Source: Gammaproteobacteria bacterium (GTDB lineage: Bacteria; Pseudomonadota; Gammaproteobacteria; Pseudomonadales; Azotimanducaceae). Taken from it: a stretch of DNA of 64,000 bases. Shown piece by piece: positions 51,009 to 54,850 of the stretch. Made by a program: the position numbers and the translations under genes. The notes beneath the pieces were generated by a model, which searched no databases, was not told the origin of the DNA, and worked only from the letters and a program-made list of their open reading frames with translations. The stretch's first letter is position 1, and each line of letters opens with the position of its first letter. Location of the stretch: contig JAPOYV010000046.1 of NCBI GenBank assembly GCA_026706385.1, positions 1 through 64,000 on the forward strand, read 5' to 3'.

Positions 51009-51344
51009 CTAGCCGACGGACGACAGCGCGGCGTCGCGGCTATCGTGTATGTCGATGATCTTGTCGAAACCACTGATCTCGAAGACTTCGCGAATCGGCT
51101 TGGACGGTGAGCAGAGCGCGAACTTGGCCGAGCGCCGCGAAAGGGCCTTGGCGGTCAGTAGGACGGCACGCAATCCGGCACTGCTGATATACGAGAGGTC
51201 AGCCAGATCCACGATGACGGCCGTATCGCTGTCATCGATCGCACCGCTCAAACTCTGTTCAAAGTCGCTGGCATTCACACCGTCGATGCGGCCCGCCGCC
51301 TTGGCAATCAGCGTGCCCCCCTGCCGTTCGACATTGAGTTCCAT
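51009..51344 (-). CDS. STAS anti-sigma factor antagonist (RsbV-like)
   Basis: 111 aa. STAS fold: MELNVERQGGTLIAKAAGRIDG, VIVDLADLSYISSAGLRAVLL with the phosphorylatable Ser in ISSAG (about 57-61), and a C-terminal IREVFEISGFDKII. Convergent with the histidine kinase. It supplies the missing piece of the partner-switching set: the RsbW-like protein should phosphorylate it and the PP2C protein dephosphorylate it. Confidence 0.9.
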   Translation of the reverse strand: MELNVERQGGTLIAKAAGRIDGVNASDFEQSLSGAIDDSDTAVIVDLADLSYISSAGLRAVLLTAKALSRRSAKFALCSPSKPIREVFEISGFDKIIDIHDSRDAALSSVG

Positions 51345-51494
51345 GCTCGCTCGCCCACCTACCAGAATGAGACGCGAACCATACCACCCTGAAAGGCATG
51401 TTGTCTCGTCACTTCAGCGGCTCCCTACTTACGAGGGGCGAGCCCCTCGCGCTCTTGTGCTGAGGGCTCCCAACGCCCGAGCACCGCCTGAAAG

Positions 51495-51868
51495 TGGTGG
51501 GCCCACCAGGAATCGAACCTGGGACCGATGGATTCGCTGATCCCGGGGTTTCCCCCGGGCGCGGACTATCTCATCACCCGCCACGGCCGCCGAGTCGGTC
51601 TCGTCGACCGCGGCTGGGGCGCGGGACGCTCCAGCCTGTCATCAAGGGCACTCGGCGTGGCGGACACCGCGCCAGCCCCCAGGTAGTCTCTGCACCTTCC
51701 GGCGGTGTACCGCCGGCTTGGCTCAGGGTTGCCGGGGCTTCCAGCCGGACGGTTTCCCTGAATTCATCCCGTTCATCCGACGCCTTTCGGCGCCGGCGCA
51801 CCAGCTTGGCGAGCACCGCGTGCTCGCGCCGATGAGTCCACTGCTCTAACCAACTGAGCTATAGGCCC
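51495..51868 (-). tRNA. tRNA with anticodon CAT, interrupted by an intron
   Basis: 5' exon 51868-51832 (37 nt) and 3' exon 51534-51495 (40 nt, CCA encoded). Joined, they give a 77-nt tRNA whose stems all pair: acceptor GGGCCTA/TGGGCCC, D stem GCTC/GAGC, anticodon stem GTGGA/TCCAT with one G-U, T stem CCAGG/CCTGG. The loop is CTCATAA, anticodon CAT. Elongator Met and lysidine-modified Ile2 cannot be separated with certainty; the known Azoarcus intron is in tRNA-Ile(CAU). Confidence 0.92.
51535..51831 (-). mobile_element. Group I intron inside the tRNA anticodon loop
   Basis: 297 nt inserted directly after the anticodon T. P1 forms from exon CAT plus intron CGGC paired with GCTGGTG about 27 nt inside, giving the U-G pair at the 5' splice site. 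P4 is CAGGG/CCCTG (with the GAGCCAAG motif), P7 is GACTA/TAGTC (in GCAGAGACTACC and GATAGTCC), and P9 is a 7-bp GAAA-capped hairpin. The last base is G. No homing endonuclease is encoded. Closest in form to the tRNA introns of Azoarcus and cyanobacteria. Confidence 0.92.
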
Positions 51869-51876
51869 GTCAAGCA

Positions 51877-51906
51877 AGTGTAGCCGCGCCGGGAAGGTTG
51901 AGTCCA
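51877..51906 (-). promoter_or_regulatory. Possible promoter of the split tRNA gene
   Basis: Minus-strand TGGACT (51906-51901) and TACACT (51882-51877), 18 bp apart, end 8 bp before the tRNA 5' end. Confidence 0.4.
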
Positions 51907-52037
51907 CGACGCGACCGCTTCGCGGTCGCCCCGAGAATTCGCTGCGCGACGCGACCGCTTCGCGGTCGCCCCGAGAATTCGCTGCGCGAATTCTCCTGGT
52001 ACGGGGGCCGCCGGGGAACAAGACGCGGTCTTGTTCC
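51907..52037. repeat. Cluster of tandem repeat and three short-loop hairpins
   Basis: A 40-bp unit is repeated in tandem (51907-51946, 51947-51986). Each has GCGACCGC-TTC-GCGGTCGC. The second unit also starts GAGAATTCGC-TGC-GCGAATTCTC (51973-51995). A third hairpin, GGAACAAGAC-GCG-GTCTTGTTCC, is at 52015-52037, just past the frr stop. All have 8-10 bp perfect arms and 3-nt loops. The last may terminate frr; none has a T-tract. Confidence 0.75.
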
Positions 52038-52044
52038 GTGCGGG

Positions 52045-52602
52045 TCAGATCGCCAACAGGTCCTCTTCCTTCTCCGCCAATGCGGCATCGACCCGCCGCA
52101 CATGCTCGTCGGTGACCTTCTGGACGTCGTCCTCCGAGCGGTGGCCGTCGTCCTCGGTCGCTTCCTTCTCGCGCACCAGTTCGCGCACATCGGCAATCAC
52201 GTCGCGGCGGATGTTGCGAATGGCGACACGGGCGTTCTCGGCCTCCTGACGGGCGAGACGGATCAAGTCCCGGCGGTTCTCCTCGGTCAACGGCGGCATC
52301 GGCAGGCGGACCACGTCGCCCGTGCTCGACGGCGTCAAGCCGAGGTCGCTTTTGAGGATCGCCTTTTCGATGTCGGGGACCAGGCGCTTCTCCCAGGGCG
52401 AAATGAGCAGGCTGCGGGCCTCCTCGACGGTGATCGTCGCGACCTGCTTGATCGGGGTCGACGTGCCGTAGTAGTCGACCTCGACGCCATCCAGGATCGC
52501 TGGATTCGCGCGCCCGGTGCGGATCCGGGAAAACGCCGTGCGCAACGCGAGCTGCGACTTCTCCATCCGTTCGGCCGCATCCTCTATGAACTCGTCAAGC
52601 AC
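52045..52602 (-). CDS. frr: Ribosome recycling factor
   Basis: 185 aa from GTG 52602, matching the E. coli length; a TTG one codon earlier is also possible. RTGRANPAILDGVEVDYYG, TPIKQVATITVEEARSL and the C-terminal helix are typical. Splits post-termination ribosomes with EF-G. The start overlaps the pyrH stop by 8 bp. Confidence 0.96.
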   Translation of the reverse strand: MLDEFIEDAAERMEKSQLALRTAFSRIRTGRANPAILDGVEVDYYGTSTPIKQVATITVEEARSLLISPWEKRLVPDIEKAILKSDLGLTPSSTGDVVRLPMPPLTEENRRDLIRLARQEAENARVAIRNIRRDVIADVRELVREKEATEDDGHRSEDDVQKVTDEHVRRVDAALAEKEEDLLAI

Positions 52603-54220: not shown

Positions 54221-54850
54221 ATGACGGAGTCGGAGCAGTCGCTAAACGAATCGCTGTCCGCCGCAATCGACGGCGAAGCCGAGGAGCTTGAACTGCGGCG
54301 GGTCCTCAACGCTGTCGACGAAAACCCCGACCTGCGCGCGAAGTGGCAGCGTCTGCACCTGATCGGCGGCGTTCTGCGGCGCGAGACACCGCCCGTCGTC
54401 CGTTCTCCGCTGCCGACGTGGCCAGCGGACATCGAAACCGGTGCTGCAGACGACCACGCAGCGGGGGAACGCGCGGCGCCCGGCCCGACGCCTGAGCCCG
54501 AGAGCCGGCGTCTCGGCGGTCGCTGGCTGGCACCGGTGGGCGGCGCCGCCCTGGCTGCCGCAGCGGCCCTGGTCGTCGTGTTCTACTTCGGCCCGGACGA
54601 GCCGACCGGCACCGAACCGGTCGTCGCGGACGGGTCTCAACCGCCCGCGCATGGGCTGGCAAACGTGCCGACCGAGTTGGACCTCGAGCGCGCAAACGCC
54701 TACATCTACCAACACGCCCGCGGCACGTCGATCGCTGCACGACCGGCCGCCATGCCGTTCGTCAAGGAGCTTTCCACAGCGCCCGTCGCGCCACAGCGAG
54801 AAGACCCCGACAACCGAACCGGGCGGGCGGCAAGCCAACAACGGCAGTGA
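54221..54850 (+). CDS. rseA: Anti-sigma-E factor RseA
   Basis: 209 aa. The cytoplasmic N-terminal domain (SLNESLSAAIDGEAEELELRRVLNAVD...LRAKWQRLHLIGGVLR) matches RseA/MucA. One transmembrane helix about 105-122 (APVGGAALAAAAALVVVFYF), then a periplasmic tail. Site-1/site-2 proteolysis releases sigma-E. Two nt after rpoE; its stop overlaps the rseB start. Confidence 0.92.
   Translation: MTESEQSLNESLSAAIDGEAEELELRRVLNAVDENPDLRAKWQRLHLIGGVLRRETPPVVRSPLPTWPADIETGAADDHAAGERAAPGPTPEPESRRLGGRWLAPVGGAALAAAAALVVVFYFGPDEPTGTEPVVADGSQPPAHGLANVPTELDLERANAYIYQHARGTSIAARPAAMPFVKELSTAPVAPQREDPDNRTGRAASQQRQ

Follow-up and report, generated by a model that had tools for sequence, protein, structure and literature searches.

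In the 64,000-nucleotide stretch of gammaproteobacterial DNA analysed here (the window), a gene for tRNA-Ile(CAU) is, in our judgement almost certainly, interrupted between U36 and A37 by a group I ribozyme that folds and splices in the way proposed below. Shown here are the anatomy of the gene, covarying helices in the intron, the single copy of the gene in the draft genome and a tilS gene in the same genome; transcription and splicing are predicted from what group I introns are known to do. An intron of the same kind sits in the same tRNA in nearly all genomes of the genus that were seen, and it belongs to a widespread but little-described lineage.

Layout of the split gene and structure of its intron

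The gene lies on the minus strand, and its features are collected in Table 1. When the two halves were joined without the insert, ARAGORN drew a complete 77-nt tRNA(CAU) cloverleaf, just as a preceding sequence-only reading had claimed for the removal of 297 nt. Against the Rfam model RF00028, the insert matched at the E-value level with 39.2 bits and E of 1.6e-8 along the full model (positions 1-253 of 253), and it was the top match within 51400-52000; the group I match that had been proposed as a check was thus obtained. Indeed, at E 0.001 the insert was the only RF00028 match in the whole 5.1-Mb draft. The Rfam gathering cut-off for this model, which is a curation threshold and not a biological feature, is 50 bits, and the insert falls short of it; a default Rfam scan is therefore silent, and at the gathering level nothing was reported across the whole window. 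Also, the insert folds with a z-score of -3.92, and none of 200 shuffles was equally stable. The reading had further expected tRNA finders to miss the gene, which was borne out by ARAGORN: with no intron allowed, it drew no tRNA at the split gene, and with an intron allowed, it recovered the span with an anticodon of CCG or CAU, varying with the options.

Table 1. Features of the split tRNA-Ile(CAU) gene in the window
Feature	Position	Strand	Basis or remark
Split tRNA-Ile(CAU) gene, whole	51868-51495	minus	374 nt
tRNA-Ile(CAU) 5' half, 37 nt, last 3 nt the anticodon CAU	51832..51868	minus	sequence reading and ARAGORN fold
Group I intron, 297 nt	51535..51831	minus	RF00028 match and covariation
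P1 5' side: exon CAU and intron C1, U36.G at splice site	51831..51834	minus	read in window
Hairpin extending P1	51809..51827	minus	read in window
Internal guide sequence GGUG, P1 3' side	51799..51802	minus	
P2 hairpin	51777..51796	minus	both-side changes in 8/8 pairs; 90.7% of cells paired
P3 5' strand	51765..51771	minus	RF00028 and pair counts; part of row-choosing rule
P4 5' strand	51756..51761	minus	RF00028 and pair counts
P5 region	51732..51752	minus	least supported of the drawn helices, pairing in 83.6% of cells
P4 3' strand	51723..51728	minus	RF00028 and pair counts
P6 and P6a	51694..51722	minus	P6a: both-side changes in 6/7 pairs, 100% paired
P7 5' strand (guanosine-binding helix)	51684..51688	minus	RF00028 and pair counts; invariant
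P7.1/P7.2 stem, 49 nt, between P7 and P3	51635..51683	minus	P7.2: 3/4 pairs covary, 100% paired; P7.1 invariant
P3 3' strand	51622..51628	minus	RF00028 and pair counts
P8	51575..51621	minus	both-side changes in 4/5 pairs, 98.8% paired
P7 3' strand	51564..51568	minus	RF00028 and pair counts; part of collecting pattern
P9 with GAAA loop	51542..51559	minus	both-side changes in 6/7 pairs, 94.6% paired
Terminal (omega) G of intron	51535..51535	minus	invariant in 67-intron alignment
tRNA-Ile(CAU) 3' half, 40 nt, CCA encoded	51495..51534	minus	sequence reading and ARAGORN fold

To the RF00028 match can be added covariation among 67 distinct introns at the same site and of the same type as that in the window (68 minus one duplicate), and the group I intron claimed for this tRNA(CAT) gene is upheld by both. 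In the alignment of these introns, 63 pairs were written down and counted. The drawn pairs were formed in 97.3% of the cells, compared with 87.7% in shuffles and with 35-45% when the partners were slid, a comparison in which the drawn structure has the advantage of having been read from the window's own sequence. Cells in which both sides had changed numbered 388 versus 93.9 +/- 9.5 in shuffles, with none of 500 shuffles as high, and both-side changes were seen in 28 pairs versus 19.8 in shuffles. The helices that covary are P2, P6a, P7.2, P8 and P9, none of which played a part in the selection of rows. C1, GGUG and the P3 5' strand were required by the row-sorting rule, as were the P7 3' strand and portions of the 3' exon by the pattern used for collecting; that P1 and, in part, P3 and P7 do not vary is therefore uninformative, and because the row choice already demanded C1 and GGUG, support for P1 comes from the tRNA-Thr and tRNA-Lys hosts described below. 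The group I core composed of P3, P4, P6, P7 and P8 was paired in 98.8-100% of the cells in the 67 introns, with the P3 5' and P7 3' strands selected for, and support for P5 is partial. All elements that the sequence-only reading had named, namely P1 with the U-G splice-site pair, P4, P7, the GAAA-capped P9 and the terminal G, could be located in the intron. The loop of P1 varies in size: 26-46 nt in 13 of the 15 introns of the genus, 5 and 8 nt in the other two, and 4-19 nt in the 52 rows of the alignment from outside the genus.

On its own strand, the intron holds one reading frame (80 aa, 51574-51816), for which Pfam gave no match at E 1, and no endonuclease gene, a trait of homing introns, was recognised inside the intron. 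Neither a sigma-70-like promoter nor a terminator-like site was found in 51300-52060. A plasmid origin was considered and rejected: when the whole gene was compared with plasmids by distant BLAST, only the tRNA 5' half (the first 37 nt) was matched, in seven records. Just upstream of the tRNA, a 17-nt palindrome is present in two perfect copies (51912-51928 and 51952-51968); two matches to it were reached in 3 of 100 shuffles, and comparable palindromes were seen by eye to adjoin the gene in some relatives of the genus. Elsewhere in the window, ARAGORN called a tRNA-Leu(GAG) at 54595-54670, which had no match to the Rfam tRNA model in the search of either the window or the genome and is probably a false call.

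By analogy with known group I introns, the transcribed intron RNA would fold on itself, and its guide GGUG would pair with the anticodon CAU and the intron C1, the U36.G pair marking the 5' splice site. Attack by a guanosine docked in P7 would then cut the RNA after U36; the terminal G would replace that guanosine in P7, and the freed U36 would attack the 3' splice site, so that CAU becomes joined to AAUCC. That the insert is spliced only with a protein helper, self-splicing by itself being inefficient, seems to us unlikely, though not so much that it can be passed over. The core helices are all present, and the Azoarcus pre-tRNA-Ile intron is reported to be self-splicing (Tanner and Cech 1996); both points speak against the need for a helper. 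In favour of a helper, the intron of the window is, at 297 nt, longer than the seven Azoarcus-like introns that we collected (204-223 nt), and some group I introns do require protein cofactors (PMC2813881).

Copy number and identity of the tRNA

In the draft genome (5.1 Mb, 134 contigs, 98% complete), the covariance model matched 42 tRNAs, and ARAGORN, when run over all 42 places, drew 41 distinct ones, two of which are without clear identity. Among the 41, only L013 and L025 carry the anticodon CAU; both are Met-like, and we take them to resemble the elongator and initiator tRNA-Met, ARAGORN labelling all CAU tRNAs as Met. TilS converts C34 of tRNA-Ile(CAU) to lysidine, upon which the tRNA reads AUA. 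In the present genome, tilS was found above the cut-off, and the split gene supplies a third CAU tRNA beside the two Met-like ones; AUA codons, furthermore, occur ten times in total, in five of the seven window genes checked. The Ile identity is thus predicted on three grounds: the two Met-like tRNAs are excluded, tilS is present, and the tRNA resembles the intact tRNA(CAU) of relatives.

If the split copy were a dead pseudogene, AUA would have to be read by another tRNA. The covariance model and ARAGORN turned up no second tRNA-Ile(CAU) in the draft, and a pattern made from the 5' half matched the window's own genome only once, at the split gene. Indeed, in 15 of 15 genomes of the genus (G000-G010 and G012-G015), the pattern matched exactly once, again at the split gene, and in each of them the group I match sits in tRNA(CAU); two of these genomes, G012 and G013, are single contigs. 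The unsplit tRNA of the same identity, which would have spoken against the sequence-only reading, was accordingly found neither in the draft nor by this pattern in the 15 genomes. It is true that a draft 98% complete could be missing a tRNA, and that the pattern is blind to copies with a different D-arm, such as those seen in the relatives G037 and G021. Nonetheless, the exons and the ribozyme core are kept with covariation, as would not be expected of a dead copy, and we consider a pseudogene very improbable.

The sixteenth genome of the genus, G011, stands outside the count of 15, as it yielded no group I match and the exact 5' half was not found in it; four places in it match the 5' half with one mismatch, and the two that were fetched show no tRNA. 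We give practically no credence to an artefact of assembly or binning, since even though the window comes from a draft of 134 contigs, a diverged insert occupies this site in another 14 genomes of the genus and, outside the genus, in 8 of 21 genomes of the family.

Distribution and history of the lineage

Among the 58 genomes searched in the genus, family and order, 26 have an RF00028 match, the window's own included, and in 17 of the 58, other members of the genus among them, the match is above the gathering cut-off. In the other genera of the family, the intron is in tRNA(CAU) in 8 of 21 genomes and an intact tRNA(CAU) gene lies at the matched place in another 8 (G021 and G032 among them), with the remaining five (G018, G028, G030, G031 and G033) assigned to neither. 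Outside the family, 21 genomes of the order were searched, and the intact gene was seen in 20 of them (G037 included), G047 being the remaining one. The intron is therefore distributed patchily within the family, and none was seen in the order's other families. Further group I introns were noticed in the genus (L078 in G015) and in the family (L076 in G027 and L077 in G036), and their hosts look by eye like tRNA-Leu(UAA) genes plus one tRNA-Arg(CCU)-like gene.

The view of the sequence-only reading that few such introns are known from gammaproteobacteria needs correcting. In a sample of the class, which presumably may include betaproteobacteria as the class is used there, an RF00028 match at E 0.001 was found in 56 of 369 genomes (the window's own included) with filters that lose weak matches; group I introns in tRNA genes are therefore not rare in this class. 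The best 30 of these matches comprise 18 in tRNA-Ile(CAU), four in tRNA-Thr(UGU), one in tRNA-Lys(CUU), three in genes that are tRNA-Leu(UAA)-like by eye, and four others. A stricter core pattern was matched in 17 of the 369 genomes, again with the window's own (12 Ile, 4 Thr and 1 Lys), and in a sample of the phylum in 2 of 398, namely the window's own genome and G611, in which the host is Ile(CAU) by eye. A pattern scan of public genomes gave at least 120 stretches; as it stopped before the matches were exhausted, its counts are lower bounds. Together with 22 loci from the genome searches (L001 included), at least 142 loci bear the pattern, and at least 91 join as tRNA(CAU), with hosts including Dyella, Rhodanobacter, Lysobacter, Luteimonas, Steroidobacter, Woeseiaceae, Polynucleobacter and Isosphaeraceae. 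Of the 91, a sequence rule placed 68 with the window's type and 7 with the Azoarcus-like introns, leaving 16 others.

The strict core pattern was also matched at the same anticodon position in four tRNA-Thr(UGU) genes (L227, L229, L232 and L235) and in one tRNA-Lys(CUU) gene (L238). As judged by eye, the guide fits the anticodon with a G opposite U36 in all of them: GCA in the 4/4 tRNA-Thr loci, which come from three genera, and GAG in the 1/1 tRNA-Lys locus. All five printed introns (four Thr, one Lys) have a 36-nt segment between P7 and P3, and in that of the Lys intron the possible pairs GCGG/CCGC and GGGG/CCCC, also seen by eye, would keep both stems with their letters changed.

Several loci of the scan have peculiarities of their own. 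In Polynucleobacter (L080, L095 and L112), one or two extra tRNA-Ile 5' halves stand in tandem upstream of the intron-bearing gene at a spacing of ~230 nt. Two Bacteroidota, Hymenobacter coccineus (L156) and a member of Saprospiraceae (L191), have introns of 667 and 685 nt at the same site with a frame containing a Cys/His motif; the Pfam matches of these frames, including HNH endonuclease at E 0.042 and 0.033, are all below the cut-off and weakly hint at a mobile form. L174, in a record named Actinomycetes bacterium, has an intron of the gammaproteobacterial type, reflecting either transfer or a mislabelled bin.

A quick tree was built from 115 introns and 239 columns, with SH-aLRT as its only support. 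The 15 tRNA-Ile rows of the genus form one branch (SH-aLRT 88), so that common descent of the intron within the genus is likely. In all, 22 rows fall on the branch to which the genus belongs (support 89), the K189A clade and HTCC2089 being the nearest named ones; the genus itself may lie near HTCC2089. The labels of families and classes are scattered over the tree with mostly weak support. Vertical inheritance across the whole family was considered and dropped because, of eight introns found in the family outside the genus, four (L050, L051, L054 and L056) fall off the 22-row branch, a placement with weak support by a quick method; beyond the genus, transfer and loss cannot be told apart on this tree. 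The Thr introns cluster with four tRNA-Ile introns of Burkholderiales (support 91) instead of adjoining those of the window's type, and the Lys intron stands by itself. In a proposal that we regard as evenly balanced, one ribozyme lineage with a stem between P7 and P3 would have spread through gammaproteobacteria, settling at 36/37 of tRNAs with anticodons ending in U (Ile CAU, Thr UGU and Lys CUU), with its guide rewritten each time, and would control in many species the only tRNA for a codon.

Relation to known introns and significance

Group I introns in bacterial tRNA genes have been described from cyanobacteria and from alpha- and betaproteobacteria (PMC4033280), and introns in tRNA-Ile2 are named for Acidovorax and Burkholderia in the paper on tRNAscan-SE 2.0 (PMC8450103), according to which group I introns account for a missing fMet or Ile2 gene in 36 genomes. 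The tRNA-Ile introns of Azoarcus, Acidovorax and Burkholderia share with that of the window both the tRNA and a site in the anticodon loop, and the Azoarcus-like introns in our collection, from Polynucleobacter and other betaproteobacteria, occupy the same site after CAU. The Azoarcus pre-tRNA-Ile intron is of subgroup IC3 (PMC3984707). We do not place the window's intron in IC3, because P7 does not lead directly to P3, the 49-nt P7.1/P7.2 element lying in between, whereas in three printed Polynucleobacter introns P7 runs straight into P3. Stems between P7 and P3 occur in other group I subgroups. On the tree, furthermore, the seven Azoarcus-like introns and L195 form a separate branch (support 96). 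We assume that the Azoarcus intron itself belongs to this Azoarcus-like type, which is known here from Polynucleobacter and other betaproteobacterial sequences.

Putative group I introns have also been described in tRNA genes of gammaproteobacteria, namely in tRNA-Arg(UCU) and tRNA-Leu(UAA) of two Beggiatoaceae (Thiomargarita and BOGUAY); they differ from the present one in the tRNA, and the paper leaves their structure and type undetermined (PMC4853749). The introns in cyanobacterial and plastid tRNA-Leu(UAA) and in cyanobacterial tRNA-fMet are likewise group I introns adjoining the anticodon; these are in other tRNAs and hosts and are set against the window's intron by description only (PMC4033280). 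Among the matches listed from open-licence literature, no title concerned tRNA-Ile(CAU) introns in gammaproteobacteria, and the passages of PMC3984707 and PMC11835236 covered here say nothing on them; in the portions of the open-licence literature found, tRNA-Ile introns are named only from betaproteobacteria.

Both the kind of element and the tRNA that hosts it are therefore known, and in this group of organisms such introns are not rare; the interest of the intron lies in the dependence on a sole copy, in the conserved extra stem and in the match between guide and anticodon over three tRNAs. At their default settings, both Rfam and ARAGORN pass over the window's copy; with copies of this kind, some gammaproteobacterial genomes will seem to be without tRNA-Ile(CAU), as PMC8450103 reports for others. 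In 15 of the 16 genomes seen of the genus, a predicted ribozyme is needed for a probably essential decoding tRNA, and the lineage, as a natural case of matching between guide and anticodon, allows tests of how group I introns in tRNA genes switch their targets.
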